Positions 38,964 through 61,676 of a DNA stretch of 64,000 nt are shown here, piece after piece. Under the pieces are notes generated by a model that had not been told where the DNA came from, ran no database searches, and worked only from the letters and a program-made list of their open reading frames with translations. The position numbers were made by a program, and so were the translations under genes. The DNA comes from Daucus carota subsp. sativus (lineage: Eukaryota; Streptophyta; Magnoliopsida; Apiales; Apiaceae), in NCBI RefSeq assembly GCF_001625215.2, contig NC_030381.2, positions 51,111,214 to 51,175,213 of the forward strand, given 5' to 3'. The first letter of the stretch is position 1. The number at the start of each line of letters is the position of its first letter.

Positions 38964-39148
38964 CTGATCGGCCTACAATCGCTGATGTTATCTCCATGTT
39001 AGGAAATGACAATGCAGTTTTGCCACTTCCCAAGAGGCCTGCATTTTATAGCGGAAGCAGGGTACGCGAGAATGAAATACAAGAGACTAATTTAGCTGAA
39101 TATTTTTCGGTGAATGGTCTTTCTATATCTGCCATGAAAGCAAGATAG
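38964..39148 (+). pseudogene. Receptor-kinase last-exon fragment (remnant A)
   Basis: The frame reads DRPTIADVISMLGNDNAVLP, then KRPAFYSGSRVRENEIQETN and ends SISAMKAR with a stop. This is the end of an S-domain kinase C-terminal tail. It is closer to the remnants at 50646 and 56299 (SGSRVREN, NGLSISA) than to the intact gene 190 bp upstream. Everything before DRPT is missing, so it is a detached fragment marking the left edge of the duplicated array. Confidence 0.85.
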
Positions 39149-39313
39149 GGAATATGTGAGTAACACAACTTTGTATCTTCAGACTGTACAAAAAGGCTGA
39201 TACATTTTTAATTTGAAAAACGCTAGTCGTTAAAATCAACATCTGTCTGTCACGTTATTTGAATAGAATTTATTGATGCCGATGTGATAATAGTGTCACG
39301 TTGTGGATGTTAC

Positions 39314-40130
39314 TGAGGGTGAGCAAAACCGGATATCCGGTCCGGTTATGAATTATAAACCGGATATCCGGTTTTTCGGATCACTAAATTTTCATTCCGG
39401 TTCCGGTTCCGATTTAATCGGATATTCGGATATCCTCTTAAATCGGATCGGAAAACGGATAATCCGGATCCTGTTTTTTTCAAAAAATATGTATTACTTT
39501 CTAATTCCATAAATTTGTAATGTTTAACTCTGTTTTTTCACAAGTATAAAAAGAAAAACTATTATCAGTAGCTTAGGCAATTTCAAAAAAAAACCCAGTA
39601 GCTTAGGCAATAAATCCGGTGTCTTTAATAACCGGCTGATCTCAAATAAACTATAAGGCACTACTGCTCTTGATGCATAAAGTTGCAGTTTTTTAACATC
39701 TCTGTCTCTGCTTCTGCATAATTGAGGGGCTCTTCTCTGCGAATGGCTAGAATTCTCCCTCGGTCTACTTAAATCTCAACATCTTAAAATCAACTGGGAA
39801 TAAATTTCACACAATGTTGTTGTTAAAAAAACATAGATGCATAAAGTAAAATTTTGTAACAAATATTCTATAGAAAAGATTTATAAAAAGTATTATATAT
39901 TATTTATAAAACTATTTTTAATTAAAAATAATAAAACCGGATCGGATCCGGATATCCGCTTTCTTATATATATGTGATCCGGATCTGAATCCGAATTTAT
40001 AGAAAAAAACCGGATCGGATATCCGGTCCGATTTATTCGGATCGGATATCCAAATTTCCGGATATTTTAAATCGGATACCGGACCGAAAAATCGGATAAT
40101 CCGGATTTCGGTTTTTTATGCTCACCCCTA
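39314..40130. mobile_element. hAT-type element with GGATATCCGG subrepeats
   Basis: The ends TGAGGGTGAGCAAAACCG and CGGTTTTTTATGCTCACCCCTA are inverted repeats of the plant hAT type. They are flanked by a perfect 8-bp duplication GATGTTAC (39306-39313 and 40131-40138). Both subterminal regions are packed with ATCCGGATATCCGG-like words, candidate transposase-binding repeats. The middle is AT-rich and non-coding, so it is non-autonomous (817 bp). Confidence 0.88.
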
Positions 40131-40524
40131 GATGTTACGAGGAGCTTACTTATTAAAAATTTATTTGATTTATCAATTACAAATAAATCTAAACACATTT
40201 ATTATTTATTTAAAATCTATTTTAACTAAATTACACTATTATTCTGAACATTCGAAATAAAATTATATATTCAAACATATAATAAAATATATTTTATAAG
40301 TCTTCACGTATAATAGAAAAAAGTTACTCACTCTGTCCCACTCATTTCATTACAATTTTTCCATTGCTCGACATGCATTTTAAGACGCATGTAAAACATA
40401 ATTTCATAATTTTTTCTGAAAATTTTCTTTTTCTCTTTTAAAAAAGTAGACAGTGAATATTTATTCAGAAAAAAAATTTCAAAATAATTTATCAGACAAC
40501 GACAGTATTTTGTAACTGTTTTTT

Positions 40525-40540
40525 AGGGTTCGGAACCCTA
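40525..40540 (+). promoter_or_regulatory. Conserved AGGGTTCGGAACCCTA palindrome upstream of F-box gene 1
   Basis: An interrupted palindrome containing the telo-box-like AGGGTT lies about 57 bp before the ATG. The same motif, as AGGGTTTGGAACCCTA or a close variant, sits at a similar distance before three other F-box copies (48625, 52842, 59059), so it belongs to the shared promoter or leader. Confidence 0.5.
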
Positions 40541-40596
40541 GGCTTACAAATACAAAACAAACATACTTCACAATCGTGAATGAATCCTTAATTCTC

Positions 40597-41817
40597 ATGC
40601 AAATTATGGAGGAGCAGCTGCGCAAAAGGAGAACACAAACCACAACAGAGCTGCCACAAGAAATAATCCACAACGAGATACTTCCACGACTGCCACACGA
40701 ATCCGTAATACGATGCCGATGTGTCTGTAAATCCTGGCTCTCTCAAATTTCAGACCTCGAATTCGCTAAACTCCACCTTAGTCATCATCAATGCCGATGT
40801 GTTTGTAAATCCGGGCTCTCTCAAATTTCAGATCCCGAATTCGTTAAAGTCCACCTTAGTGATTATCAATGCTGTGATACTTATCTCCTGAAACGCTATA
40901 TCAAACCGGAACTAGAAATTGTCTCTCCCATGAAAGAAACTTCCATCGACACGGCCCCTTTCCTCGGCATCAGCCTCTTGATTGGTTCCCTTAATGGTTT
41001 AATCTGTTTCGTACGTCAGGAGGGTTTCACGTTGTGGAACCCTGCTATCCGTCAATACAAGGAACTTGGCACCGCACAGCTGCATACTAGTATATGTAAA
41101 CAAGTTGTGGACTCGTGTAATTGGAGATGCATTAATGGTAAATCTAAACATCTGTACGGGTTTGGATGGGATCGTAGGAGAGACGATTATAAGATTGTGG
41201 TAGTGTGCTATGTTCAGCCTGACTCGAAACATGCTTTTGTTTACTCGGCTATTTCTGATTCTTGGACTGAAGTTGTGCTTCCGACAGGTATATTTGGAAC
41301 AAATTCGAGGTCTTATATAAATTCTCCGGTTCCAAGAGTAGTTGTGAACGAATGCCCGTACTGGACTTACTCGAAATATTTGCAATTACCTGGAAAAAGT
41401 TCTAAACGTCGATTAACTGTGGTGTTCAAGTTTGTGGCTGAGAACAATGAGTTCAGATTGTTGCCTGAATTTGATTTCGCGGAGAAGAGGGAACTGAAAC
41501 TTGTTAATTTAAGGGATCGTCTTGTCGGAACGAATTACATATATAATGGATATCGTCCTAAAGTTTTGAATATATATTCATTGGACCATGAGGGATCCAC
41601 TGGTGTCTGGAGTAAGATATATACTACGGAAGCCGTGGATTGTGGTTTCCTGAACACACGTGTTGGATTAGGGCGTTTTACTTACACGCCTAGTTTGGTT
41701 TTTGTCCAAGGAATGAAGAAGATCATGCATTCTGAAACTCATTCCCAAACAGATGACAACCCTGGTAACCTTGTTCCAAACCCGGTTCCTACATCTGCAA
41801 TTCAAAAGGCCCCTTAA
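40597..41817 (+). CDS. F-box protein with FBA domain (array copy 1)
   Basis: A single exon of 1221 nt (406 aa). I chose the ATG at 40597 (MQIMEEQLRKRR) because upstream in-frame starts in sister copies are not ATG, whereas this one is kept in all. The F-box lies at residues about 19-60 (LPQEIIHNEILPRLPHESV, then CRCVCKSWLSQISD). A 26-residue segment then repeats almost exactly (CRCVCKSGLSQISDPEF). The rest is the type-1 F-box-associated domain: LLIGSLNGLICF, LWNPAIRQYKELG, YGFGWDRRRDDYK, SDSWTEV. Such proteins join SCF ubiquitin ligases through SKP1 and use the FBA region to recognise targets; CPR1 is a known member. The target is unknown. It is downstream of the receptor kinase on the same strand, with similar copies following. 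Confidence 0.85.
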   Translation: MQIMEEQLRKRRTQTTTELPQEIIHNEILPRLPHESVIRCRCVCKSWLSQISDLEFAKLHLSHHQCRCVCKSGLSQISDPEFVKVHLSDYQCCDTYLLKRYIKPELEIVSPMKETSIDTAPFLGISLLIGSLNGLICFVRQEGFTLWNPAIRQYKELGTAQLHTSICKQVVDSCNWRCINGKSKHLYGFGWDRRRDDYKIVVVCYVQPDSKHAFVYSAISDSWTEVVLPTGIFGTNSRSYINSPVPRVVVNECPYWTYSKYLQLPGKSSKRRLTVVFKFVAENNEFRLLPEFDFAEKRELKLVNLRDRLVGTNYIYNGYRPKVLNIYSLDHEGSTGVWSKIYTTEAVDCGFLNTRVGLGRFTYTPSLVFVQGMKKIMHSETHSQTDDNPGNLVPNPVPTSAIQKAP

Positions 41818-42807
41818 TATTTCAGCATGATACTTTTAAAGCATATAGGTGAAGTACCTGCCTCGAATTATTAATGATCTTTTCTTACCTTAGTTAACTA
41901 TTAATGATCTTTTATTTCTCCCTTTGGCCTGTAAGGTTGAGTTCATTTTAATTTCTTGCTCATAAATTAAATGCTGCTTTGCCTAGTGTTTAATTCTTCA
42001 AGCCTTTTGTTTGCAGATGACCTGTCATCTGATAATTCATATAGATTCTGAAAAAACTCATCTGAATTGTGTAAATGGATTCTACTAAATATCAAAAAAA
42101 TGTAAAAATACGCTATGCAATAGATTTGAATGAAGTTGGTCCAATTTAAAAACTATGCATTGGAGCACTAGTTGTATTTTAAGAGCAACACAACTTTTTG
42201 GTGTCAAATTGTAACAACGGCTATAGCCATGTTAGCTTTAGCATTGGACTTGCTCTAAATAAACACTGTGCCTGGGAACACAAACCCTTTTCTGCAGCAG
42301 ATTCTTCTTGCAGGCATGAATGTGTTAGGAATACTCTGCCACAATTTGCATAGTTATTGCTTTCATATTTCATAATTCATACAGTAACTTCCCAAAAACG
42401 TAAACTAAATTACTCAACAAACATCAAAAGCATTATTGGTTAAAAATGGACTAATACTCAGAAGTGTGCAGAAAAGTGAGCTCTTGATTGCTACTTTAAA
42501 AGTTCTATTTAAATCCGGGGCTTAGTCAAGGATCAAAAGTCATGATAGGCTTAAAAATGGTTCTCCCTTTAGTGTTACTTATAATTGAGAAGTTACTTTT
42601 AATATATGTTCCAAGCTCTCTCTAGATGTTGGACCTTTGCCAAATTCTGGTAGAAGTATCATGTGTGTTGAGATCAGTTTTGCATGTCTACAACATTTTA
42701 GGAAGAACAAAGTTGGTGACCTGTGTTCATTTTGCCTCTAAATTTTTTGTTTTCAAATCAAACAAAGAACTCTTGGTATTAAGAATTAATTAATGGAGAT
42801 TTTTCAA
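41818..42807. repeat. F-box downstream repeat block (copy 1)
   Basis: Sequence from the F-box stop to about 42780 recurs after the copies at 49864, 55509 and 60274 (AAGCATATAGGYGAAGCACCTGC, CTTTTCTGCAGCAGATTCTTC, CCGGGGCTTAGTCAAGG). It contains no coding exon. Here and after 60274 it continues AAAAGTCATGATAGG; the other two copies switch to kinase sequence at that point. Confidence 0.8.
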
Positions 42808-42887: not shown

Positions 42888-43048
42888 AACTTCGTACCTG
42901 CAGAAGTCTGCCTAAGGAAGGAAATACCTAAAATGTCTGCCTTAAATTGTGGGATAAAGCATACGGGAAGGAACGTGAAAGTGTAAAACCTAGGCCAATA
43001 TATATTACAACTGTATCGTTTGCATTTTGCAGTGAATTCATAATCCCC

Positions 43049-43600
43049 ATGCAAATGGAGGAGCAGCTGCAAAAAAGAAAAGCAAAGACTGAAACAGAGC
43101 TGCCAGAACATATTATCCACCAAGAGATTCTTCCTTGGCTGCCAAACATATATCCCTACTACGATCCTCTGTGTTTGTAAATCCTGGCTCAGTGGCTCTC
43201 TCTGTTATCCGATCCTAAATTCATTAATAAACTCCGGCTTAATCATCAATATGGTCAAGATCATCTCGAGGTCGAGAGTAACATATACGTGTCACAGTTA
43301 AGAATTATCTCTCGCTTGAAAGAAACTTGGATCAACACGACCACTTTCATCAGCAACAGCCTCTTGATTGGTTCCGTTAATGGTTTAATCTGTTTCGCTT
43401 GTCCAGATGTTTTCACGCTCTGGAATCCCGCTATTCGTCAACACAAGGAACTTACTACAGCACAGCTGCATAGTAGTAACTGCGAAAGAAGTGACAGTTG
43501 GAATCCTGAGCGAAATATTAGTGGAAATTGTAGACATCTTTACGGATTTGGCTGAGATCCTTCGGAAAACGATTACAAGGTGGTCATAGTGTGTTATTTC
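43049..43600 (+). pseudogene. F-box/FBA pseudogene
   Basis: It starts MQMEEQLQKRKAK and reads into ELPEHIIHQEILPWLPN like the intact copies. A +1 shift then produces a stop before the expected CKSW. The FBA frame reopens (RLKETWINTT, LLIGSVNGLICF, LWNPAIRQHKELT) and ends at YGFG with TGA. Homology to F-box copies stops near 43610, and from about 43622 the sequence matches the stretch that follows the kinase remnants (AATATGTGAGTAACAT). It is more diverged than the other copies (QKRKAKTETELPEH), so it is an older member truncated by recombination. Confidence 0.85.
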
Positions 43601-43621
43601 TTATTTGGTGCCGAATTGAAA

Positions 43622-44048
43622 ATATGTGAGTAACATAACTTTGTATCTTCAGACTGCACAAAAAGGCTGATACATTTTTAATTTGAAAAACGCTAGTTGC
43701 CGTTAAATTCAACATCTATCTGTCACGTTATTTGAACAGAATTTGAGTACGCATCATTACTCTTTTAATTTTGCTAAATATACAAAACTGAAACTTTAGT
43801 TCCGGTGAACTTCTGCCACTTTCGCAAAAATGAGGCGAAGTTTCATCGGCAATCACGCTTATGTGTGTGTAAAATTACCTAAATACTTTAAAATAATTCC
43901 AGTGGGTCAGGGTCTACTGAATTCATTGCTGTAATGATATACATTGATGATATGTTATAATTTACTTACGAGATTGGTTAAAATTTGCTGCACTCTGGTG
44001 GGTTGATGGCCGGAATAGCTTATGTACTGTGTTGTTGTTCATCTGGTC
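43622..44048. repeat. Post-kinase repeat block
   Basis: Similar to the sequences after the kinase remnants at 39149, 51277 and 57413 (GTGAGTAACATAACTTTG, AAAAACGCTAGTTGC, GGCCGGAATAGCTTATGTAC). It is non-coding and serves as a landmark for the duplicated unit. Confidence 0.8.
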
Positions 44049-45228: not shown

Positions 45229-45627
45229 ATTTTAAAAATTGATCAAACATTAATTAATTGATCAAAGATTGAATTAATCAGTACAAAAATGGAATAATCT
45301 GTCAAAATCAATCAGTATTACTAAAATTTGTAAATTTTAAAAATAATTATATTATAAATAATATTAAATTAATTTTAATTAGTGATAAAATTAATCCCCG
45401 ATTTTTAATTAATAGCTAACTAATTCCTAATTCTCGTTTCACAACACTTACTCTACTATATATTAAAATCGTAATATTAAAATATGGTTATTCAATATTT
45501 CACCTGACTTACAATCCTCTTCAATTTATAATATTTTTAATAATTTTCTTTATTAATATTTACGTATTTATAAGGGGAAAAATCTCAAATAGGTCACTGA
45601 AGTGAGCCCATGGTATCCAAAATTATA

Positions 45628-46180
45628 GGGTTAATTATCTAATTGGTCATTGAAGTGAGCTTAATGTATCAAATTGGTCACTGAACTCAAAACGGTATCA
45701 TGATGGTCACTGAAGTGGCCATAAATATCAAACAGGTACTTTGAAGTATAAATTCAAACAGTAAAAAAATTATTTATAAAGTTTTACACATTATTTTTGA
45801 ATGTTACCAAAACCAAGTAAAAAGTTATGACTTCTAATATTTATGAATATATTTAGATTTTATCGAGTTAATTTATTAATTATTATTAATTAAAACAAAG
45901 AAAATAACAATATAATAAAATATAAATAATAAATAAAGTTGATAAAATATAAATATATTATTTTAAATACTTGAAATCATAACCTTTTAGTTGGTTGTGG
46001 TAACATTTAAAAATAATGCGTAAAACTTTATAAATAATATTTTTACTGCTTGAACTTATATTTTAAAGTACCTGTTTGATATTTATGACCACTTCAGTGA
46101 CCATCTTGATACCGTTTTGAGTTCAGTGACCAATTTGATACATTAAGCCCACTTCAGCGATCAACTTGATAATTAACCCA
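45628..46180. mobile_element. Fold-back Mutator-like MITE, copy 2 (nested)
   Basis: Same family as 44745-45228 (GGGTTAATTATCTAATTGGTC at the left, GATAATTAACCC at the right). It is flanked by AAAATTATA (45619-45627 and 46181-46189), a 9-bp duplication. It interrupts the left terminal repeat of the larger element. The uninterrupted right terminal repeat shows the pre-insertion order. Confidence 0.88.
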
Positions 46181-46413
46181 AAAATTATATCGAACTCAAC
46201 GAGGTCTCATCCGTATCACTTTAGTAACGGATAATGATATGTCCGTTAGTTTGACTTGTTTGACCAAACGGAAAACTGACATGGCGAATGTTTGTTTAAT
46301 AGAGTGGCTGACAGACGTCCCTATCAGCAGTTACGTGGATTGTAATGTTACAAAACAAATAAATACCCTTATCAGTTATCCCCTCTTCTCTTCTCAATCT
46401 CTCTGTCTATATA

Positions 46414-46834
46414 TCTATACTATACTATAATATAATAAGCCAACATATGTTTAATTTGTAGTCGTACAAAATTTTGGTTTGGTCATCTCCTTTATAACTA
46501 CAAGTCGGTCACATATAGACTTCTCTTACTCTTACAATATTAAAGAGTTTTATACCATTCAAATTACAAACACTTGTGATGTAATACAAGATAAAAAACT
46601 CCACCATTATTCTTTTAAATATAATTTATATATTATTTATATACTATATTATAATAAACTGATATTGGTATAATTCGTAGTCGTCCAAAAAATGTAATCA
46701 GTTGGTAAATATAATATGGTTAAAATCTAATTCATTAATACTAAAATACTAATAAGACGATATTAAAATTTAAATTATAATTAATAAATTACAAATTCTA
46801 TACTCGCCCGTGCTTTGCACGGGTTAAAGGCTAG
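46414..46834 (+). mobile_element. Small non-autonomous Helitron
   Basis: The 5' end TCTATACTATACTATAATATAATAAGCC-like lies after A. The 3' end has the GCCCGTGC/GCACGGG hairpin and CTAG before T. It lies inside the 45575-48362 element and is about 420 bp long. Confidence 0.78.
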
Positions 46835-47481
46835 TAAACTTAATATGAGAAGATGATATTTAAGAGTCAGGCCCACGAGAGAGATGTTGCTAGAGATCTC
46901 AGGCAAGTGGAGGCACGCATCAAATACATCCGAGCTAGCCAACCAATGCTAATTTGAAAAACAGAAAAAACATAAATTTCTATTATTTTTTATAAAACTT
47001 TTATTCTATTTTTACTTATCCACTTTTCAAATTTATTAATTAATTACTGCTTTTATTGACCCATTTTCAAAATCTTTTTACCCATTTTCTTTTCTTTTTC
47101 ATCGAAATTGAAAGTATCAAAGAAAAATAAATAAAATATTAATAGATCCCATCTTGTTACCCATTTTCTTATCTTTCTTACTATTTTATACAAAATTTTT
47201 AAATTCTGTGCACTATCCAAATATAACAAACTGGAGGGGGGGTTAAAATATTCGATTATCTATATATAAATAATTTATTTAAACTAAATAATTTAAAATG
47301 ACATAATCTTATGATTAATTCTAAAAATTGTAAGTACTTTTATAAATAATTTAGTTTTTTTATCGATATAAATGAATTAGTTAATCTTATATTAACAAAT
47401 TTAGAAATAATTATAATTACGTGATATCATAAAAATTCAAGTTTTTGAGAATCATAATTAAGATTAATAAATACTGATAAG

Positions 47482-47716
47482 TACTCCCTCTGTTTTTTAT
47501 ATGTCACTTTTGACTTGAGCACGTACCTTTAGGTGGGTTGACCGGCTAGTAAAAATTATTATTTTTAATTGATATTTTTTTGTGAATAAAAATTTTGATT
47601 ATATATTTTTATTAAGAAAAAAAAATTTAAAAAATAATATTTTTAACTATCCGGTCAAAACACTTAAAAGTGTGTACCAAAAAGTCAAACGTCATATATT
47701 TAAAAACAGGTAGCAG
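47482..47716. mobile_element. Degenerate Stowaway MITE
   Basis: Left end ACTCCCTCTGTTTTTTATATG; right end CATATATTTAAAAACAGGTAGCAGTA. These are weakened Stowaway ends. The interior is AT-rich. Confidence 0.5.
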
Positions 47717-47823
47717 TAAATATAAATACTGTGCTTTTGTTCGTTGACATGCAGCTTGGTGGCCTGAGTGAGGGTATTTGAGCTTGCAATGTAAGGATCA
47801 AAAGGCCCTATTTTCAAAGACAT

Positions 47824-48023
47824 GCTGTTTGGGAAGCGGAATCAATTTCTGCTTTTGGCTTCTGCTTTTCTTGACCCGTTTGTGTAAAGAAGTAGAAGCA
47901 CTTTTAAGAAGCTGAGAATGCTAGCTTTTCTCTCACAGCTTCTGCTTCTTTTCCAAACACTTTATTCACTTATTTACTTTTCACTTTATGGAATCACTTT
48001 TTTTAAGTTTGGCCAAACGGCCC
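47824..48023. mobile_element. hAT-like MITE
   Basis: GCTGTTTGGGAAGC at the left and GTTTGGCCAAACGGCCCC at the right are hAT-type ends. The interior has repeated GCTTCTGCTTTT words in both orientations. No duplication was resolved. Confidence 0.45.
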
Positions 48024-48624
48024 CATAATCTGAGGCTCCATTTAGCCTGGCTTCACTGGCAACATTATATCACTGGCAACAACATATATACATATATATA
48101 CACACCGGGAAAGAGAAGAGAAAAGGGGATAGGGGTATTTAATCATTTGTAATGTTACAATCCACATGGACGTAGATAGGGACATTCGGCAGGCACTCTG
48201 GCAAACAAATATTCGCCACATCAACTTTCTGTTTGGTCAAACAGTCAAACTAACAGACATGTCATTATCCATTACTAAAGTGGTACGGATGAGACCCCGT
48301 TAAGTTCGATATAATTTTTGATACTACAGGCTCACTTTAGTGACCAATTTGAGATTTTTCCCTATTTATAAGTCTCCTATCCAACTTAATTATTATGATG
48401 AGTTTAATCATTAAAAATTTATTTAACATGTCAATTACAAATATATTATTCCAAACAACTTTATTAATTCCTTAAAATCTATTTTAATTTAATTACATAT
48501 ATTATCTAACATTTAAAATAAAATTATATATTCGAACATATATAATAAAATATAAATTTATAAGTCATTCCAAAATTGCAAGTATAATAAAAAAAGAGTT
48601 ATTATGTACAGTAACAATTTTTTT

Positions 48625-48640: not shown

Positions 48641-48694
48641 GGCTTACATAAACAAAAAAACGTACTTCATAACGTGAATGAATTCTTAATTCTC

Positions 48695-49864
48695 ATGCAA
48701 ATTATGGAGGAGCTGCTGCGCAAAAGAAGAACACAAGCCGCAACAGAGCTGCCACAAGAAATAATCCACAACGAGATACTTCCACGACTGCCACACCAAT
48801 CCGTAATACGATGCCGATGTGTCTGTAAATCCTGGCTCTCTCAAATTTCAGACCCCGAATTCGCTAAACTCCACCTTAGTCATCATCAATGCCGATGTGT
48901 TTGTGAATCCGGACGATCTCAAATTTCAGATCCCGAATTCGTTAAATTCCACCTTAGTCATCATCAATGCCGTGATACTTATCTCGTGAAATGCTATTTC
49001 AAACCAGAACTAGAAATTGTCTCTCCCACAAAAGAAACTAGCATCGACACGGCCCCTTCCCTCGGCACCAGCCTCTTGATTGGTTCCGTCAATGGTTTAA
49101 TCTGTTTCGTTCGTCGTGAGGGTTTCACGTTGTGGAACCCTGCTATCCGTCAATACAAGGAACTTGGCATCGCAGAGCTGCATACTAGTATATGTAAACA
49201 ATTTGTGGACCCGTTTAACTGGAGATGCAATATTGGGAAAAGTAGACATCTGTACGGATTTGGCTGGGATCGTAGGAGAAACGATTATAAGATGGTGATA
49301 GTGTGCTATGCTCAGCCTGATTTGAAACAAGGTTTTGTGTACTCGGCTAATTCTGATTCATGGACTGAAGTTGAGCTTCCGACAGGTATATTTGAAACAA
49401 AATCGAGGTCTTGTATAAAATCTCCGTGTCCAAAAGTAGTTGTGAAGGACTGCCCGTACTGGAGTTACTCGATATATTTGCAATTATCTGGAAAAAGTTA
49501 TAAACGTATATCAACTGTGGTGTTCAAGTTTGTGGCTGAGAACAATGAGTTCAGATTGTTGCCTGAATTTGACTTGGCGGGGCAGATGGAACTGAAACTT
49601 GTTAATTTAAGGGATCGTCTTGTCGGAATGAACTACAGATATACTGGAAGTATGTTTCGTCCTAAAGTTTTGAATATATATTCGTTGGACCATGAGGGAT
49701 CTGCTGGTGTCTGGAGTAAGATATATACTACAGAAGACCTGGATTGTGGTTTCCTGAACACACGTATCGGATTAGGGCGTTTTACTTACACGCCTAGTTT
49801 GGTTTTTGTCCAAGGAATGAACAAGATCATGCATTCTGAAACAGTGAAACACATTCCCAAATAA
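48695..49864 (+). CDS. F-box protein with FBA domain (array copy 2)
   Basis: A single exon of 1170 nt (389 aa), starting MQIMEELLRKRRTQ. The F-box (LPQEIIHNEILPRLPHQSV, CRCVCKSWLSQISD) is followed by the same 26-residue internal repeat as copy 1, here CRCVCESGRSQISDPEF. The FBA domain is complete (LLIGSVNGLICF, LWNPAIRQYKELG, YGFGWDRRRNDYK). It ends SETVKHIPK, about 20 residues shorter than copy 1, because of a stop close to the C-terminal SETHSQ site. Intact and probably functional as an SCF receptor; its target is unknown. A kinase remnant begins 780 bp downstream on the same strand. Confidence 0.85.
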   Translation: MQIMEELLRKRRTQAATELPQEIIHNEILPRLPHQSVIRCRCVCKSWLSQISDPEFAKLHLSHHQCRCVCESGRSQISDPEFVKFHLSHHQCRDTYLVKCYFKPELEIVSPTKETSIDTAPSLGTSLLIGSVNGLICFVRREGFTLWNPAIRQYKELGIAELHTSICKQFVDPFNWRCNIGKSRHLYGFGWDRRRNDYKMVIVCYAQPDLKQGFVYSANSDSWTEVELPTGIFETKSRSCIKSPCPKVVVKDCPYWSYSIYLQLSGKSYKRISTVVFKFVAENNEFRLLPEFDLAGQMELKLVNLRDRLVGMNYRYTGSMFRPKVLNIYSLDHEGSAGVWSKIYTTEDLDCGFLNTRIGLGRFTYTPSLVFVQGMNKIMHSETVKHIPK

Positions 49865-50645: not shown

Positions 50646-51276
50646 AAAGTCGACACAGGGGTTGACTGAGTTGAAAAATGAACTCCTCCTCATTGCCAAA
50701 CTCCAACACACAAATTTTTAATATCTGCAAATATCATCAATCAATTGCATTATGATCATCACAGTGGTTACATGGCTCCTGAGTACGTGATGGAAGGCAT
50801 ATTCTCCATGAAATCTGATGTCTTCAGTTTCAGAGTTCTGATTCTTGAAATCCTAAGTGGTCGAAGAATTAACAGCTACAATCACATTGAAGGTCCATCC
50901 AACCTCGTGGCATTTGTAAGTAAAAGATATTATGATTATAACTAAAATGTAAAATTAAACTCGAAAGCTAACAATTTAATTTATTATATTAACAAAAGGC
51001 CTGGGAGCTGTGGAACAGAGATGCTACATTTGAACTTGTTGATCCATCAGTACGTGATTCATGTGTTCAACAAGAATTTGAGAGATGTGTTCACCTCGGT
51101 CTTTTGTGCGTCGAAGATAATGCTCTTGATCGGCCTACAATGCAGTTTTGCCACTTCCCAAGAGGCCTGCATTTTATAGCGGAAGCAGGGTACGTGAGAA
51201 TGAAATACAAGAGACTAATTTATGTGAAAAAATTTCGGTGAATGGCCTTTCTATATCTGCCATGGAAGCAAAATAG
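50646..51276 (+). pseudogene. Receptor-kinase 3' fragment (remnant B)
   Basis: It begins inside kinase exon 4 ([20 protein letters not shown]) and skips to the end of intron 5. It continues with exon 6 ([22 protein letters not shown], with R for G in SFRVLILEI) and, after an intron, exon 7 ([16 protein letters not shown]). The catalytic loop and DFG exon are deleted. In exon 7 a 34-bp stretch between two ACAATG words is missing, shifting the frame after DRPT. It cannot encode a working kinase. Confidence 0.88.
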
Positions 51277-52841
51277 GAATATGTGAGTAACATAACTTTG
51301 TATCTTCAAACTGTACAAAAAGTCTGATACATTATTAATTTGAAAAACGCTAGTTGCTGCTAAAATCAACAGTTGTCTGTCACGAACGTAGCATTACTCT
51401 TTTAGTTTTGCTAAATATACAGAACTGAAACTTTAGCTCTGATGAACTTCTGCCACTCTCGCAAAATTGAGCCGAAGTTCTATCGGCAATCACGCTTATG
51501 TGTGTGTAAAATTACTTGGATACACTAAAATAATTCCAGCGGGTTAGGGTCGACCGAATTCATTGCTATGATGCTATAAAATTTTAATGATAGGTTAAAA
51601 TTTACCTGTGAGATTGGTTAAAATTTGCCGCACTTCGGTGGATTTGATGGCCGGAATAGCTTATGTACCGTTGTTAATCTTGTGTTAGTGTTTGGTTGGG
51701 GTGAATGAATCTCGAATGAATGGAATGAAAAATGAACTATATTATGGACAATTGTTAAAAATTTCATTCTCCATTCTTTACCTCATGTGCTAGATATCAA
51801 ATCTTCAATTTGAGATGAATGCTCCATTCTCTCCTATTCTCAATTTCTTTACAAATCTTATCATAGCAATTTTGCACTCCCTCAAATAATTTCCAAAACT
51901 TCCTTCCTATTTATCTTAATTTCAAGTATTTTTACTCATTTCATTCCATTCTATTCCATTCCATTCTTCCCAACCAAACACAACATTGGAGTCTTGGTAT
52001 CCTCCATATTTGGGGAATTGGCTGACTAATTAGTAATCGGACAAATTGCACTCTGATTAATTTGATTAAAAAATGATTGTTTTAAAAATTGATCCAAATT
52101 CCAACATCAATCAATCAGAATATTACTAAAATTTGTAAAATTTAAAAATAATTATATCATAGATAATATTAAATTAATTTCGATTAATGATTGTATTAAT
52201 GCTTGAATTTTTTTATATTAACTGCTAATCAGTATCTTCCCCGATTAGCTCTGATTCTCGTTTTTACAACACTTACTCTACTAGTATATATTAAGATCGC
52301 AATACTAAAATGTTTGGTTGGTCAATATTTAAACTAACTTACCGTCTTCTTTAATTCATAATATTTTTAATAAAAAATTTATTTAATTTTATTCATTTAT
52401 AAGTCTCCTAACTAACTTAATACTGTGATGAGCTTACCTATTAAAATTTATATATCAGTTTCAAATATTTTAATCCAAACAAATCTATTATTTGTTTAAA
52501 ATCTATTTTAACTAAATTACATTTTTTATTCTGAACATTTGAAATAAAATTATATATTCAAACATATAATAAAATATTAATTTATATGTCTTCACGTATA
52601 ATTGAAAAACACTCATTTTTTTTATATTTTTTTATTGATCGACACGTATTTGAAAACGCATGTAAAACATAGTTTCATAACTATATTTTGACTTTTTTTT
52701 ATAAAAGTTTAGATAATAAATATTTATTTAGAATTTTTTTTAAAATAATTTATCAAATTATATTTTATGAAATACTAATTAGGCTTAATTTCCGTCGTAA
52801 ATAGCCCTGTAGTGACGGGGGTATCTTGTAACTATTTTTTT
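51277..52841. other. Inter-unit spacer with MITE
   Basis: Post-kinase repeat block (51277-51680), a MITE (about 51687-51983), then AT-rich F-box promoter sequence shared with the other units. No coding exon. Confidence 0.7.
51687..51983. mobile_element. TIR MITE at the inter-unit site
   Basis: Left end GTGTTTGGTTGGGG, right end CCCAACCAAACACAAC; the interior has GAATGAAT and ATTCATTC-type words. A different MITE occupies the equivalent position at 57836. No target duplication was resolved. Confidence 0.55.
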
Positions 52842-52857
52842 AGGGTTTGGAACCCTA
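52842..52857 (+). promoter_or_regulatory. Conserved AGGGTTTGGAACCCTA palindrome upstream of F-box gene 3
   Basis: Same motif as at 40525 and 48625, about 44 bp before the ATG. Confidence 0.45.
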
Positions 52858-53376
52858 TGGCTTACAAATACTCCATAAAGTGAATGGATCCTTTATTCAC
52901 ATGCAAATCATGGAGGAGCAGCTGCGCAAAAGAAGAACACAAGCCACAACAGAGCTGCCGCAAGAAATAATCCACAACGAGATACTTCCACGACTGCCAC
53001 ACGAATCCGTAATACGATGCCGATGTGTCTGTAAATCATGGCTCTCTCAAATTTCAGACCCCGAATTCGCTAAACTCCACCTTACTCATCATCAAAGCCG
53101 ATGTGTTTGTAAATCCGGGCTCTCTCAAATTTCAGATCCCGAATTCGTGAAAGTCCACCTTAGTCATCATCAATTCTGTGATACTTATCTCGTGAAACGC
53201 TATTTCAAACCGGAACTAGAAATTGTCTCTCCGATGAAAAACACTTCCATCGACACGGCCCCTTTCCTCGGCATCAGCCTCTTGATTGGTTCCATTAATG
53301 GTTTAATCTGTTTCGTTCGTTGTGAGGGTTTCACGTTGTGGAACCCTGCTATCCGTCAATACAAGGAACTTGGCAC

Positions 53377-53658
53377 TCATTATCCCGGTCAGTCATTAGC
53401 TGATTCAACTGGACAGAGACACCCACTATCATCTCGTTGAGATCTGCTATGGCTTTAGCATTTGCAGCAATAGTGCTACCCTGCTGCTGGTATGTGGAGT
53501 CGAGCTTGGTACTCTGTTCATCGAGAAGAGATTTAAGAATAGTCTCTGAACGGTGAACATCGTCGTCGCCATCGTGACTTCTGCTCTTGCGTGATGAAAC
53601 CATGGTGGCCGAGAATGGACTGCTCTGATACCAATGATACCTTGCACTTAAAAAGAGA
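53377..53658 (-). mobile_element. Ty3/gypsy 5' fragment, inverted (PBS + gag start)
   Basis: On the minus strand, TGGTATCAGAGC (about 53622-53634), a primer-binding site for initiator Met tRNA, is followed by ATG and a gag-like N terminus (MVSSRKSRSHDGDDDVHRSE, then a coiled-coil-like stretch). It ends abruptly at the F-box junction. Its orientation is opposite to the pol fragment next to it. Confidence 0.75.
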
Positions 53659-54837
53659 ATCTCAGGAAATGCATTCTGGTATTTTTTGACGATATTTTAG
53701 TCTACAGCCCCACTTGGGAAGATCATTTACAGCACTTGCAGGAGGTTCTGGAGCTCATGAAAGTCCACACTCTCCATGCTAATCTAAAAAAGTGCTCGTT
53801 TGGGACTACGCAGATTCATTATCTGGGTCACATAATCTCTGAGAAAGGGGTAGAAACAGAGAAAGACAAAGTGCAATCAATCTTGCAGTGGCCTCAGCCC
53901 ACCACATTAAAGCAACTCAGAGGTTTTCTTGGCCTCACGGGGTACTACAGAAGATTTATTAAAGACTACGGAAAAATCTGTAAACCAATGACCCAACTGC
54001 TTAAAAAAGATGCGTTTCAATGGAATGCGGAAGCCACAATTGCCTTTGAGAACCTGAAGCATATTATGACTTCTCCTCCAGTGTTGGCTCTTCCAGATTT
54101 CAGCAAACCATTCTTAATCGAAACAGATGCCTCAGGCCAAGGCATGGGTGCGGTATTAATGCAATTTGGGCACCCTATTGCATTTGCCAGCAAAGCATTT
54201 TCAGAGAGAACTATGCAGTTATCAGCATATGAACGGGAACTCATGGCCATTGTGATGGCTGTTAAGAAATGGCAGCATTACTTGATGGTACAGCCATTTG
54301 TAATCAGGACAGATCAACAGAGCTTGAAATTCATTCTGGAGCAGAAGTTGGCCACGCCATTTCAGCAAAAGTGGCTTTCCAAACTTGCTGGTTTCGATTA
54401 CTCTATTGAGTACAAATGTGGAGCTGAAAACAAAGTGGCTGATGCCTTGTCAAGGCTCCCAAATTCACAGCTGCAGTCTATGATAGTATCGACTGTACAT
54501 TCTGGCTTATGGGAAGAAATTGTGCAGACTTGGCAAGATGATGGGAACTTAAAGAAAGTAATTGAGGACTTACAAAATGATCCAGCTTCACACCCCAAGT
54601 ACACTTGGAAGGACCAGCAATTGAGGAGAAAAAGGAAATTAGTCATTGGCAATAACAATGTGGTCAAACAAAAGATTTTAGACTGGACGCACAACTCTGC
54701 TCAAGGGGGGCACTCGGGGATGGAAGCCACTTATAAGAAAATCAGAAATCTGTTCCATTGGAAGGGCCTCAAACAAGCAGTGCACACTCATATTCGGAAC
54801 TGTCTAACATGCCAAAAGTGCAAGTAACGGTATCACC
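53659..54837 (+). mobile_element. Ty3/gypsy pol fragment (RT end, RNase H, integrase start)
   Basis: An open frame reads FFDDILVYSPTWEDHL (the RT active-site FxDD). It continues through YLGHIISEKGVETEKDK and LRGFLGLTGYYRRFI, then RNase H (LIETDASGQGMGAVLMQ, FAYERELMAI-like text, RTDQQSLKF, KVADALSRLP). It ends in the integrase zinc-finger region (HSGMEATYKKI, then CLTCQKCK). Protease, the RT fingers, the integrase core and both LTRs are missing. The order is typical of plant Ty3/gypsy Pol. It lies inside an F-box gene. Confidence 0.88.
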
Positions 54838-55509
54838 CCACAGCTGCATACTGGTATATGTAAACAAGTTGCGGACTCCTATAATTGGAGATGCATTAAT
54901 GGTAAATGTAGACATCGGTACGGGTTTGGCTGGGATCGTAGGAGAAACGATTATAAGATGGTGACAGTGTGCTCTGTTCAGCCTGATTCGAAACAAGGTT
55001 TTGTGTACTCGGCTAATTCTGATTCGTGGACTAAAGTTGTGCTTCCGACAGGTATATATATAAAATCTCCGTGTCCAAGTGTAGTTGTGAAGGACTGCCC
55101 GTACTGGAGTTACTCGAAATATTTGCAATTACCTGGAGAAAGTTCTAAACGTAGATTAACTGTGGTGTTCAAGTTTGTGGCTGAGAACAATGAGTTCAGA
55201 TTGTTGCCTGAATTTGACTTCGCGGAGCAGATGGAATTGAAACTTGTTAATTTAAGGGATCGTCTTGTCGGAATGAACTACAGATATACTGGAAATAAGT
55301 TTCGTCCTAAAGTTTTGAATATATATTCGTTGGACCATGAGGGATCTGCTGGTGTCTGGAGTAAGATATATACTACAGAAGACCTGGATTTTGGTTTCCT
55401 GAACACACGTATCGGATTGGGGCGTTTTACTTACACGCCTAGTTTGGTTTTTGTCCAAGGAATGAACAAGATCATGCATTCTGAAACAGTGAAACTCATT
55501 CCCAAATAA

Positions 55510-56290
55510 CTCTGGTAACCTCAATTCCCAAACCCGATTCCCCCATTCCCATTACCGATTCAAACGGCCCCCTAATATTTCAGTATGATACTTTTAAAGC
55601 ATATAGGCGAAGCACCTGCTTCGGATTATATCTTATTACTCTCTTTTCTTACCTTGGTTAACTATTAATTATATTTTATTTCTCCCCTTAGCCTGTAAGG
55701 TTGAATTCATTTTATTTTCCTGCTCTTAAATTTGATGCCGCTTTGCCTAATGTTTAATTCTTCAAGCCTTTGGTTTGCAGATGATCTGTCATCTGATAAT
55801 TCATTTTGTAGATGCTGCAAAAACTCATTTGAATGGTGTAAATGAATTCTATGGACTTTTAAAAAATGTAAAAATACGCTATGCAATAGATTTGAATGTA
55901 GTTGGTCCTATTTTAAAACTATGTATTGGAGCACTAGTTGCAATTTAAGCCCAAATCAACTTTTTTGTGTCAAACAACGGCTATAGCCAATTAGCCATGT
56001 TAGCTTTAGCAATATTGGACTTGCTCTGAATAAACACTGTCCAATATGGGAACACAAACCCTTTTCTGCAGCAGATTCTTCTTGCAGGCATGAATGTTTT
56101 AGGAATACTCTGCCTCAATTTGCATAGTTATTACATTAATACAGTAACTTCCCAAAAAGGTAAACTAAATTACTCAACAAACATCAAAAGCATTATTGGT
56201 TAAAAATGGACTAATACTGCAGAAGTGTGCAGAAAAGTGAGCTCTTGATTGCTACTTTAAAAGTTCTATTTAAATCCGGGGCTTAGTCAA
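55510..56290. repeat. F-box downstream repeat block (copy 3)
   Basis: Nearly identical to 49865-50645. It ends at GGATCAAAAGTC and passes into kinase exon 4. No gene within. Confidence 0.8.
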
Positions 56291-56298
56291 GGATCAAA

Positions 56299-57412
<1,114 letters not shown>

Positions 57413-59058
57413 GAATATGTGAGTAACATAACTTTGTATCTTCAAACTGTACAAAAAGTCTGATACATTTTTAATTTGAAAAACGCTAGTTGCAGCTAAA
57501 ATCAACATCTGTCTGTCACGTTATTTGAACAGAATTTGCGTACGTAGCATTACTCTTTTAGTTTTGCTAAATATACAGAACTGAAACTTTAGTTCTGATG
57601 AACTTCTGCCACTTTCGCAAAATTGAGCCGAAGTTCTATCGGCAATCACGCTTATGTGTGTGTAAAATTACTTGGATACTTTAAAATAATTCCAGCGGGT
57701 CAGGGTCGACCGAATTCATTGCTATGATGATATAAATTAATGATAGGTTATAATTTACCTGTGAGATTGGTTAAAATTTGCCGCACTCCGGTGGATTTGA
57801 TGGCCGGAATAGCTTATGTACTGTTGTTACTGTTGGGTTGTGTTCACTTCATGGAATGAAATGATGGGAGAATGAAATGAAATTATATATAAAAACAAGT
57901 TTTATGGAGATTGTCGAAAGTATATGAGGCAATAATGATTAAATATGAGTGAGTTAAAATTTTTCATGAAGAAAATGATAGAAAAAGATGATGAACAAAT
58001 GGAATCAATATTCTTTTCAAAACATTTGGGTTAGATTTTTAGTTAAAATAGTTAGAATGGAATGAGCGAAGGAATGAAAATTATAAACAATTTCACTAAT
58101 CACTCACAATTTATAATATAAATTTCATTCAATTCTTCTCTCATTAATTCTGTTCCATGAAGTAACACAACCTTGGAGTCTTGGTATACTCCGTATTCTG
58201 GGAATTGGCTGATTAATTAGTAATCTGACAAACTGCACTCTGATTTGATAAAATTCAAGTAAAAAATGATTATTTTAAAAATTGTTTTAAATTCCAACAT
58301 CGATCAATCGCTCAAAGATCGAATTAATGGGTCCAAAAATGGATTACTGTCAAAATCAATCGGTATCGGAATATTACTAAAATTTGTAAAATTTATATTA
58401 TAGATAATATTAAATTAATTTCGATTAATGATTGTATTAATCCCTGATCTTTTTTTTATTAACCGCTAATCAGTATCTTCCTCGATTAGCTCTGATTCTC
58501 GTTTTTACAACACTTACTCTACTATATATTAAGATCGCAATATTAAAATGTTCGGTTGGTCAATATTTAAGCTAACTTACCCTCTTCTTTAATTCATAAG
58601 ATTTTTAATAAAAAAATTATTTAATTTTATTCATTTATAAGTTTCCTAACTAACTTAATACTGTGATGAGCTTATCTATTAAAATTTATATATCAGTTAC
58701 AAATATATTAATCCAAACACATCTATTATTTGTTTAAAATCTACTTTAACTAAATTACACTTATTATTCTGAACATTTGAAATAAAATTATATATTCAAA
58801 CATATAATAAAATATAAATTTATATGTCTTCACGTATAATTGAAAGAGTTACTCCCTCTGTCCCACTCATTTCTTTATATTTTTTTATATCGACACGTAT
58901 TTTAAGACGCATATAAAACATAGTTTCATAATTATATTTTGAATTTTTTTTATAAAAATTTAGATAATAAATATTTATTCAGAATTTTTTTTAAAAATAA
59001 TTTATCTAATTATATTTTATGAGAGTAATAGACCGGGTATTTTGTAACTATTTTTTTT
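57413..59058. other. Inter-unit spacer with MITE
   Basis: Post-kinase repeat block (57413-57830), a MITE (57836-58172) and the AT-rich F-box promoter region (58173 onward), which includes one Stowaway-like end (CTCCCTCTGTCCC at about 58853) without its partner. No coding exon. Confidence 0.7.
57836..58172. mobile_element. TIR MITE at the inter-unit site
   Basis: Left end GGTTGTGTTCACTTCATGG and right end CCATGAAGTAACACAACC pair well as an inverted repeat. TTG lies on both sides (57833-57835 and 58173-58175), possibly a 3-bp duplication. The interior is AT-rich with GGAATGAAA words. Confidence 0.68.
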
Positions 59059-59074
59059 AGGGTTTGGAACCCTA
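59059..59074 (+). promoter_or_regulatory. Conserved AGGGTTTGGAACCCTA palindrome upstream of F-box gene 4
   Basis: Same motif as at 40525, 48625 and 52842, about 43 bp before the ATG. Confidence 0.5.
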
Positions 59075-59116
59075 GGCTTACAAATACTCCATAACGTGAA
59101 TGGATCCTTCATTCTC

Positions 59117-60274
59117 ATGCAAATCATGGAGGAGCAGCTGCGCAAAAGAAGAACACAAGCCACAACAGAGCTGCCGCAAGAAATAATCCACAACGAGATA
59201 CTCCCACGACTGCCACACCAATCTGTAATACAATGCCGATGTGTCTGTAAATCCTGGCTCTCTCAAATTTCAGACCCCGAATTCGCTAAACTCCACCTTA
59301 GTCATCATCAATTCTGTGATACTTATCTCGTGAAACGCTATTTCAAACCGGAACTAGAAATTGTCTCTCCGATGAAAAAAACTTTCATCGACACAGCCCC
59401 TTTCCTCGGCATCAGTCTCTTGATTGGTTCCCTCAATGGTTTAATCTTTTTCGTTCGTGGTGAGGGTTTCACGTTGTGGAACCCTGCTATCCGTCAATAC
59501 AAGGAACTTGACACCGCACAGCTGCATACTAGTATATGTAAACAAGTTGGGGACTCGTGTAATTGGAGATCCGTTGATGGTAAATGTAGACATCTGTACG
59601 GGTTTGGCTGGGATCGTAGGAGAGACGATTATAAGATGGTGGTAGTGTGCTATGTTGATCCTGATTCAAAACAAGGTTTTGTCTACTCGGCTAATTCTGA
59701 TTCGTGGACTGAAGTTGTGCTTCCGACAGGTATATTTGGAACTAAATCGAGGTCTTTTGTAAAATCTCCGTGTCCAAGTGTAGTTGTGAAGGACTGCCCG
59801 TACTGGAGTTACTTGAAATATTTGCAATTACCTGGAGAAAGTTCTAAACGTAGATTAACTGTGGTGTTCAAGTTTGTGGCTGAGAACAATGAGTTCAGAT
59901 TGTTGCCTGAATTTGACTTGGCGGGGCAGATGGAACTGAAACTTGTTAATTTAAGGGATCGTCTTGTCGGAATGAACTACAGATATACTGGAAGTATGTT
60001 TCGTCCTAAAGTTTTGAATATATATATGTTGGACCATGAGGGATCTGCTGGTGTGTGGAGTAAGATTTATACTATGGAAGACGTGGATTGTTTCCTGAAC
60101 ACACGTCTCGGATTAGGGCCTTTTACTTACACGCCTAGTTTGGTTTTCCTCCAAGGAATGAAGAAGATCATGCATTCTGAAACTCATTCCCAAACAAGTA
60201 ACAATCCTGGTAACCTCATTACCAAACCCGATTCTCATTCCCATCTGCAATTCAAAAGCCCCCTTAATATTTGA
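59117..60274 (+). CDS. F-box protein with FBA domain (array copy 4)
   Basis: A single exon of 1158 nt (385 aa), starting MQIMEEQLRKRRTQ. The F-box (LPQEIIHNEILPRLPHQSV, CRCVCKSWLSQISD) leads directly into HLSHHQFCDTYLVKRYF. The 26-residue internal repeat of the other copies is absent, so this copy probably shows the ancestral length or a clean loss. The FBA domain is complete (LLIGSLNGLIFFV, LWNPAIRQYKELD, YGFGWDRRRDDYK, SDSWTEV). The tail resembles copy 1 (SETHSQT...). Intact; predicted SCF substrate receptor with unknown target. The downstream block lacks a kinase fragment, marking the right edge of the array. Confidence 0.86.
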   Translation: MQIMEEQLRKRRTQATTELPQEIIHNEILPRLPHQSVIQCRCVCKSWLSQISDPEFAKLHLSHHQFCDTYLVKRYFKPELEIVSPMKKTFIDTAPFLGISLLIGSLNGLIFFVRGEGFTLWNPAIRQYKELDTAQLHTSICKQVGDSCNWRSVDGKCRHLYGFGWDRRRDDYKMVVVCYVDPDSKQGFVYSANSDSWTEVVLPTGIFGTKSRSFVKSPCPSVVVKDCPYWSYLKYLQLPGESSKRRLTVVFKFVAENNEFRLLPEFDLAGQMELKLVNLRDRLVGMNYRYTGSMFRPKVLNIYMLDHEGSAGVWSKIYTMEDVDCFLNTRLGLGPFTYTPSLVFLQGMKKIMHSETHSQTSNNPGNLITKPDSHSHLQFKSPLNI

Positions 60275-61676
60275 GTATGATACTTTTAAAGCATATAGGT
60301 GAAGCACCTGCTTTGGATTATATGTTATTCTTCTCTTTTCTTGCCTTATTTAACTATTAATGATATTTTATATCTCCCCTTAGCCTGTAAGGTTGAATTT
60401 ATTCTAACTTCCTACTCATAAATTTGATGCTGCTTTGCCTAATGTTTAATTGTTCAAGCCTTTTGTTTGCAGATGATCTGTCATCTGATAATTCATTTTG
60501 TGGATGCTGCAAAAACTTTTTTGAATTGTGTAAATGAATTCTATGGATTATCAAAAAAATGTAAAAATACCCTATGCAATAGATTTGAATGTAGCTGGTC
60601 CTATTTTAAAACTATGTATTGGAACACTAGTTGTATTTTAAGACGAAAACAACTTTTTGGTGTCAAATTATAACAACGGCTATAGCCATCTTAGCTTTAG
60701 CATTCGACTTGCTCTGAATAAACACTGTGCCAGGGAAAACAAACCCTTTTCTGCAGTAGATTCTTCTTGCAGGCATGAATGTGTTAGGAATACTCTGCCT
60801 CAATTTGCATAGTTATTACATTAAAACAGTAACTTCCCAAAAACCAAAACTAAATTACTCAACAAACATTAAAAGCATTTTTGGTTAAAAATGGACTAAT
60901 ACTGCAGAAGTGTGCAGAAAAGTGAGCTCTTGATTGCTACTTTAAAAGTTCTATTTAAGTCCGGGGCTTAGTCAAGGATCAAAAGTCATGATAGGCTTAA
61001 AAAAGGTTCTCCCTTGAGTGTTACTTATAAGTGAGAAGTTACTTTTAAGTGAAAAGTAACTTCCAATATATGTGCCTAGCTCTCTAGATGTTGGACCTTT
61101 GCTAAATTCTGGTAGAAGTATCATGTATGTTGAGATAACTTTTGCATGTTTACAACACTTTAGAAAGAACAAAGTTGGTGTACTGTGTTCATTTTGCCTC
61201 TAAAAATTTATGTTTTCGGATCAAACAAGGAACTCTGGGTTTTGAGAACAAGGTAAAGGGTCATATATGTTGATAAGCATTAAGAGTTGGTTCCTCTCTT
61301 GGTTATATATTCCGCAGTAATCAAAACTTACGTAGCCTTTCTTCGTCTTGGCCCTCTACTACCTCAAATCAAATTTCAGAAAAATGAAATTGTCTATAGG
61401 CTGTATAATGAAGAAACAAGACTATCACCTGTGAATTTCAAATTTCTAGCAGATAATAATGTAATGCATCATCAAGTAGATACTCTAACATTATGCATAC
61501 GAACTCTTTAATGAAACACAGACCATTATGAAGTACATGTTCAAATTTAAAAAGGATGTTACATCATAGTTGATTCAGTTATGGATGTTCCATTCATCAT
61601 AACTACCAGGAAATTATGTCCCAACCTGGGTAATATTCATAACCATACCTTATGTGAATGACCCTCATGAGTCATG
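60275..61676. other. F-box downstream block (copy 4) and spacer
   Basis: 60275-61250 matches the block after copy 1, including AAAAGTCATGATAGG in place of a kinase fragment. 61250-61676 is unique, includes the 3' flank of the HD-ZIP gene, and shows no recognisable exon. Confidence 0.65.

Follow-up and report, generated by a model that had tools for sequence, protein, structure and literature searches.

A carrot tandem array of F-box genes and receptor-kinase ends that probably grew by unequal crossing-over

Related systems and layout of the array

Plant F-box proteins with an F-box associated (FBA) domain bind SKP1 and are members of SCF ligases, and unequal crossing-over is known to yield tandem duplications that leave passenger genes truncated. 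Relaxed selection and many pseudogenes have been described for lineage-specific tandem F-box (FBX) genes (Hua et al., 2011; PMC3030570). An array in carrot, located in a stretch of 64,000 nucleotides analysed here as a whole (the window), resembles these genes in tandem birth, low constraint and pseudogenes beside open copies; in contrast to them, its unit includes a portion of an unrelated gene as well, and the site of the crossover behind one copy can be located. With duplications made by unequal crossing-over it shares a microhomology junction, the repetition of this junction and a chimeric unit; it is the same in kind, and only the pair of families is special. For a mixed unit of F-box gene and receptor kinase nothing on point was found in the literature covered, which consisted mostly of titles and abstract openings with few subscription journals.

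The preliminary description had proposed the recurring order kinase 3' fragment, spacer, F-box/FBA gene and downstream block, for which a dotplot would be the appropriate check. A self-comparison of this type revealed direct repeats at 38965-61248, including spacer pairs, and the order recurs in four copies, A to D (Table 1). Identity is 81-94% between the F-box blocks and for the majority of kinase-piece and spacer pairs, falling to 74-78% for some spacer pairs, and a fifth F-box copy, P, older, broken and missed at first reading, shows 70-81% identity to the other copies. A kinase part is indeed present in all four units, but exons from exon 3 onward occur only in C and D, with A and B carrying just the tail, so that the claim of a kinase-fragment unit had been overstated. 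The two copies of the junction J1 (see below) lie 5651 bp apart, or 4194 bp minus the 1457-bp insert of C, and the second lies 4685 bp from the equivalent point in D (60987), or about 4.4 kb once the short repeat is subtracted. The proposed period of 4.2-4.8 kb fits 4194 bp and about 4.4 kb with the insertions removed as well as 4685 bp with the insertion kept.

The interval holding K0 and the array is flanked by membrane-protein-like ORFs (33364-35130) on one side and a PDF2-type gene (61677-62818) on the other. The array is irregular because every unit has its own insertion. That of unit A has the inverted repeats I21/I24, the element in the spacer of B (inverted repeats I5-I7) is taken by us to be Mutator-like, and the retrotransposon fragment in F-box C (Pfam RT_RNaseH_2, E 1.3e-30; Integrase_H2C2, E 1.1e-14) is presumably of the Ty3/gypsy type. 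The short repeat of unit D (query part 1470-1807) has more than 30 other places among the matches listed. As the array is known from assembled sequence, an assembly artefact or uncollapsed haplotypes might be suspected; this is extremely improbable in view of the divergence of 3-12% between the 3' flanks of the copies, the separate insertion in each unit and the different nearest relatives of the two halves of C.

Table 1. Features of the array and its left-hand neighbour (positions in the window)
Feature	Position	Strand	Remarks
K0	35751..38780	+	S-domain receptor kinase: B_lectin ectodomain exon, kinase exons, DUF3403 tail
Kinase block A (remnant)	38965..39271	+	last-exon end and 3' flank; 93.2% to 57229-57537; DUF3403 match at C1:51150218
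Insertion, unit A	39314..40130	+	presumably hAT-like; 8-bp target duplication GATGTTAC at 39306-39313 and 40131-40138 (by eye)
F-box block A	40139-42785
F-box A	40597..41817	+	open, 406 aa; in-frame 78-bp tandem duplication in F-box region
P	43033..43597	+	older truncated F-box pseudogene; 52-53% aa to D; 2 stops
Kinase block B (remnant)	43621..44039	+	3' flank only, starting at kinase stop; 90.7% to 57414-57834
Terminal-inverted-repeat element, unit B spacer	45575..48362		~10-bp target duplication TATTTATAAG
F-box block B	48611-50651
F-box B	48695..49864	+	open, 389 aa; carries 78-bp duplication
J1, first copy	50646..50651	+	B/C border
Kinase block C (fragment)	50646..51692	+	internal ~455-bp deletion, broken last exon
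F-box block C	52828-53376 and 54834-56302		split by insert
F-box C	52901..55509	+	5' part D-like, 3' part B-like; interrupted by insert
Retrotransposon fragment in F-box C	53377..54833		reverse transcriptase end, RNase H, integrase zinc finger
J1, second copy	56297..56302	+	C/D border; breakpoint identical to first copy
Kinase block D	56297-57844
Kinase fragment D	56297..57415	+	exon 3 to stop; premature stops and frameshifts
Short repeat insertion, unit D	57845..58121
F-box block D	58633-61248
F-box D	59117..60274	+	open, 385 aa; without 78-bp duplication
Original right flank	60988..61248	+	past junction point; common to A (42542-42785) only

A shared junction and a chimeric unit

At J1 the 3' flank of an F-box gene runs into exon 3 of the kinase, the two overlapping by 6 bp (AAAGTC). 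Within the window the J1 string was detected at 50644 and 56295 and nowhere else, and the uninterrupted F-box 3' flank at 42534 and 60980. Successive units of a tandem array are thereby linked by an identical novel junction at the B/C and C/D borders, with no copy of J1 at the A/P/B borders. Trees of the blocks of unit C led to conflicting placements, the left blocks grouping with D (support 98/96 and 99/95) and the right block with B (100/100), and the point of the switch lies inside the F-box coding sequence. B and D differ at 162 sites, 153 of them assignable in C; left of the best split the ratio of D-like to B-like sites is 41:18, right of it 17:77, and none of 20000 permutations reached this pattern. 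As its left half pairs with D and its right half with B, its two neighbours, unit C appears to be a crossover product, its conflicting halves matching what would be expected from unequal crossing-over. The remaining 35 of the 153 informative sites contradict a single crossover and fall partly in runs (e.g. DDDDDD near the right end), indicating that gene conversion or a later exchange is likely to have occurred in C.

Separate tandem expansions of kinase and F-box genes, interleaved by chance, might be proposed from the upstream kinase relatives, which form a cluster of their own, and from the sequence up to 50 kb to the left of the window, where the sole F-box match is distant (28% aa, at about -41 kb). 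Such a history would hardly account for the identical F-box/kinase junction at two borders or for a kinase-spacer-F-box block of several kb with its order kept, and we consider it most improbable. The common junction and the recombinant unit C instead bear out the earlier proposal of co-amplification as a mixed unit.

Among the matches listed, the unit did not recur elsewhere in the genome, nor did the array spacer among the candidates scored, and the best-scoring F-box matches listed elsewhere reached only 39-44% protein identity. A kinase and F-box pair lying within about 1 kb at C1:49.926 Mb was rejected as a second unit, its genes being arranged tail-to-tail with 28-65% aa identity. General linkage of the two families was assessed with 71 DUF3403 places (34 clusters) for the kinases and two F-box sets: set (i) with 106 places in 48 clusters (114 matches, from which 8 of the 9 window matches had been removed) and set (ii) with a further 87 of 150 places, hand-picked for clusters (120 clusters, some omitted). 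At 20, 50 and 100 kb, and with the window included, 2, 2 and 2 F-box clusters of set (i) were near a kinase cluster (shift-null means 0.27, 0.51, 0.89; P 0.04, 0.10, 0.22) and 3, 6 and 6 of set (ii) (means 0.53, 1.07, 1.96; P 0.02, 0.0015, 0.02), but these P values carry no weight either way, because gene density is not part of the null, the lengths used for three chromosomes are approximate and adjacency was the reason for choosing the window. Without the window, 1 of 47 clusters of set (i) is near a kinase cluster, and 5 of 119 of set (ii) are so within 50 kb.

The reading we favour, with a probability of about 0.87, is a local tandem array formed in two steps, with the kinase pieces as passengers and F-box A, B and D selected for an open frame. 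First, an illegitimate tandem duplication via the 6-bp microhomology would have joined the F-box 3' flank to exon 3 of the next copy of an S-domain kinase gene lying upstream, giving the unit of kinase end and F-box gene whose trace is the junction repeated unchanged at two borders. Second, unequal homologous crossing-over of B with D, within the F-box coding sequence, would have led to the chimeric unit C and the duplicated J1; the halves of C are directly visible, and the exact event is what we infer from them. Copy A may have separated at roughly the same depth as the B-D split, via a step unrecorded by J1. Judged from the sequence, the array would thus have arisen via ordinary unequal crossing-over, the F-box gene being copied along with a broken kinase end.

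Kinase remnants and selection on the F-box copies

K0, at the left edge, contains B_lectin (E 2.7e-25), PK_Tyr_Ser-Thr (E 8.7e-13) and DUF3403 (E 2.9e-6, slightly below the cut-off in the Pfam search and above it in a separate search), and this combination of B_lectin, kinase and DUF3403 assigns it to the S-domain (G-type lectin) receptor-like kinases; the S_locus_glycop and PAN models gave no match at 1e-3 in its first exon. Two neighbours have the same exon order, and manual reading of the frames against these, rather than gene prediction, suggests that K0 is complete, as had been described. Its implied role as source of the fragments has to be abandoned: K0 is not the founder because the pieces in the units group in a clade separate from it, next to the pair made up of K0 and its sister, the kinase 16-19 kb to the left (96/99; rooting by one long distant row). 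By plain identity, in contrast, piece D would be closest to a third kinase, 21-25 kb to the left.

In contrast to S-domain receptor-like kinases, the unit copies are 3' fragments only and non-coding as genes. All begin at exon 3 or later, C and D carry stops and frameshifts, and none combines the open frame, ectodomain and whole kinase domain of a working kinase, in agreement with the earlier view that every kinase copy in the units is broken. Due to the position of J1, the pieces in C and D are without promoter, ectodomain and first kinase exons. A function of the pieces, e.g. through RNA directed at the intact upstream kinases, might be deduced from the identity of piece D to three nearby kinase genes (80% to the one located 21-25 kb to the left of the window, 76% to the 16-19 kb kinase and 72% to K0), but is highly unlikely: the divergence of the kinase pieces of C and D (0.037) resembles that of the adjoining spacers (0.041 and 0.067) and so gives no sign of constraint, all pieces have one orientation, and the 25 longest of 148 inverted pairs at 37-62 kb include no hairpin with another kinase copy. 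The kinase pieces are passengers.

The F-box domain PF00646 was detected above cut-off at the N-terminus of A (E 1.4e-6), B and D, and the C-terminal F_box_assoc_1 domain TIGR01640 in A (E 1.4e-13), B, D and the 3' piece of C, with no match to the Pfam FBA models at 1e-3. By analogy, we assume that the predicted proteins are most likely substrate adaptors of SCF ubiquitin ligases. The 78-bp duplication of A was also identified as a TRF repeat at 40713-40872. The C-terminal tail of B and C is shorter than and different from that of A and D, indicating that the 3' end of the gene has shifted frame.

As described before, A, B and D are open; C and P are broken. Up to the conserved IMHSET, the three open copies contain zero frameshifts and zero premature stops, and the three coding indels among them (78, 6 and 3 bp) are all multiples of 3; in their 3' flank, indels of 1, 1, 1, 2, 5 and 14 occur in addition to those divisible by 3 and to a gap at the edge. 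With 4, 6 or 7 events in this flank as neutral standard, 6.4-11.2 frameshifts are expected (P(0) 1.3e-5 to 1.6e-3), and the neutral probability of no stop in all three copies is 9e-4. Selection on the F-box, as suggested previously, is therefore supported by the kept reading frame, but not by the contrast with the broken kinases, whose decay is uninformative because the pieces that follow the junction were truncated from birth. The Ka/Ks comparison of the open copies gave dN/dS of 0.60-0.95, close to 1 for A-B (0.95, CI 0.62-1.57) and B-D (0.86, CI 0.52-1.52), with A-D (0.60, CI 0.38-0.96) the sole open-copy pair below 1; comparisons with the broken C yielded 0.60, 0.64 and 0.43 for its 5' piece and 0.71, 1.38 and 1.05 for its 3' piece, every CI including 1. 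Pure genomic drift, with neutral F-box copies open by chance, would be in line with the values of 0.86-0.95 in two of the three open-copy pairs, with the broken state of C and P, and with relaxed selection being frequent in lineage-specific tandem F-box genes (PMC3030570). It is nevertheless unlikely, as A, B and D are free of frameshifts and stops, contrary to what neutrality calibrated on their own 3' flank would predict. The comparison supports that these three copies have been kept open through selection against frame loss, with an amino-acid sequence that would be changing fast.

What the array records

The link to receptor turnover or immunity raised at the outset finds no support here. 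Recognition of the adjoining S-domain kinases by the F-box proteins, with the kinase ends as leftovers of a block of receptor and degrading adaptor inherited together, is regarded as exceedingly doubtful. The array is a well-recorded case of ordinary birth-and-death evolution. It provides a clean record of the growth of an F-box array, in which a microhomology duplication would have been followed by a homologous crossover in coding sequence, leading to a chimeric gene, and it calls for caution: that the passengers of a tandem unit are broken is no evidence of selection on the intact gene, because passengers can be broken from birth.

Layout of the array and its shared junction

Self-comparison of the window, as suggested in the preliminary description, revealed the direct repeats proposed there as one family extending over 38965-61248. 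Without their insertions, unit C measures ~4.2 kb and unit D ~4.4 kb, in agreement with the predicted period of 4.2-4.8 kb, and the uneven spacing of the units is due to a separate insertion in every unit. The one in unit A we take to be a hAT-like element. The insert in F-box C contains an ORF encoding the end of a reverse transcriptase, RNase H and an integrase zinc finger, with an adjoining ORF on the opposite strand without a Pfam match, and looks like a rearranged fragment, not a whole element; no long terminal repeats were noticed around it. Long membrane-protein-like ORFs with 0 Pfam matches at 0.01 lie at the left border of the array (33364-35130); its right border (61677-62818) is marked by exons on the minus strand from a gene encoding a PDF2-type C-terminal domain (PF25797).

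Features of the array in window positions
Feature	Position	Remark
K0 kinase gene	35751-38780	
Kinase tail A	38965-39271	last-exon end kept
Insertion in unit A		8-bp target duplication
F-box A	40139-42785	
Old F-box P	43033-43597	
Kinase 3' flank B	43621-44039	3' flank only
Insertion in spacer B	45575-48362	terminal-inverted-repeat element, splits spacer
F-box B	48611-50651	
Kinase fragment C	50646-51692	
F-box C	52828-53376 + 54834-56302	two parts around insertion
Insertion in unit C	53377-54833	retrotransposon fragment inside F-box C
Kinase fragment D	56297-57844	
Insertion in unit D		high-copy short repeat
F-box D	ends 61248	

In F-box B and C the 3' flank breaks off at one identical position, where kinase exon 3 takes over; 6 bp at the junction (AAAGTC) match both sides. 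Within the 64-kb window this junction string is found only at 50644 and 56295, and the flanks of F-box A and D run unbroken past the junction point (42534 and 60980). Such a junction is most simply explained by a single origin, and its occurrence at both the B/C and the C/D border shows joint duplication of kinase end and F-box, which bears out the proposed co-amplification as a mixed unit.

Origin of unit C

In a two-unit array B-junction-D, unequal crossing-over of the two F-boxes (D with B) would create a middle unit that is D-like on its left and B-like on its right. Unit C has this composition: D groups with the spacer preceding F-box C (98/96) and with the flank following kinase C (99/95), and B with the 3' half of F-box C and the adjoining flank (100/100). 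Divergence is 0.037 between kinases C and D; in the 3' flank it is 0.0285 between B and C versus 0.108 between B and D. Copies B and D differ at 162 sites, 153 of which could be assigned in copy C. The best switch point falls at 55157-55327, within the F-box coding sequence, with D:B sites of 41:18 to its left and 17:77 to its right, a split equalled by 0 of 20000 shuffles. As 35 sites contradict a single crossover and are partly clustered in runs, some gene conversion or additional exchange is likely. At a plant rate of ~7e-9 substitutions per site and year, which is uncalibrated for carrot, step one (the junction) would be roughly 8 and step two (the crossover) 2-3 million years old.

The F-box copies and selection

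F-box A, B and D are open genes, and all three score over the cut-off for PF00646; the F-box associated domain TIGR01640 does so in A, B, D and the 3' piece of C. The reading frame of C is interrupted by the insert, and copies C and P are lost. A 78-bp (26-codon) in-frame tandem duplication, repeating part of the F-box itself, was observed in A (40713-40872), B (48811-48972) and C (53019-53173); D is without it. With 107 of 560 first-look candidates scored in the genome search, the best-scoring full matches outside the window reached 39-44% protein identity and none of those listed exceeded 45%, and the array therefore seems to represent an isolated F-box lineage that has expanded locally.

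In the suggested Ka/Ks comparison, dN/dS was 0.60 for A-D (CI 0.38-0.96), 0.95 for A-B and 0.86 for B-D; values including the two pieces of C lay between 0.43 and 1.38, and their intervals were wide. Taken alone, dN/dS is a weak sign of selection, and the indel pattern is a stronger one. Up to the conserved IMHSET, A, B and D differ by three coding indels, each a multiple of three; the 3' flank, ~60% of the coding length, has six that are not multiples of three, plus an edge gap. Taking this flank as neutral standard (4, 6 or 7 events) predicts 6.4-11.2 frameshifts in the three genes up to IMHSET, and 0 were observed; the count excluded the extreme end of the genes, where the frame is shifted and the termini of B and C are unlike those of A and D. 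The probability of no premature stop in A, B and D together is ~9e-4. From frameshifts and stops absent against the flank expectation, we read this as selection retaining an F-box protein while its sequence evolves fast, in keeping with the earlier suggestion that selection, if any, acts on the F-box.

Source of the kinase pieces and genomic context

K0, the kinase gene left of the array, comprises a B_lectin domain, kinase exons and a DUF3403 tail. Left of the window, two inverted S-domain kinase genes were located at -15934 to -18966 and -21513 to -24580 (C1:51086.6-51095.3 kb); another, more remote kinase lies near -48 to -49 kb. Kinase fragment D extends from exon 3 through the stop, with stops and frameshifts inside; fragment C additionally lacks ~455 bp. 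Both form one clade (100/100), and a shorter tree separates pieces C, D and A from K0 and two neighbours (100/100). The sister of K0 is the kinase 16-19 kb to the left of the window (95/95), not any of the array pieces, contradicting the implied place of K0 as a complete member of the unit series. Because the pieces form their own clade and K0 pairs with another gene, the source of the unit is, judged from these trees, a separate kinase, only pieces of which were seen here. Its closest living relative differs by method: by identity, piece D matches best (80%) the kinase located 21-25 kb to the left, whereas in the tree the pieces stand next to K0 and its sister (96/99, a support that depends on the long outgroup row).

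The genome searched comprised 441 Mb in 11 contigs, with the window at C1:51111214-51175213. Among 40 of 2805 first-look candidates scored with 56367-59000 as query (common words skipped), no unit copy was detected outside the window, just the short repeat and the kinases to the left. At C1:49924001-49932000 (~49.926 Mb), where a cluster of eight F-box relatives of the array copies has its edge, an S-domain kinase and a broken F-box stand tail-to-tail; this pair differs from the array in orientation and is only 28-65% identical. A test of F-box/kinase linkage gave P values of 0.0015-0.22 by set and distance, with the window included and a null blind to gene density.

A function joining receptor and F-box is not supported. 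With a probability of nearly nine in ten, the array is a genuine mixed tandem unit, formed by well-known processes, with selection seen on the F-box part. This is consistent with the birth-and-death evolution described in PMC3030570 for lineage-specific F-box genes.
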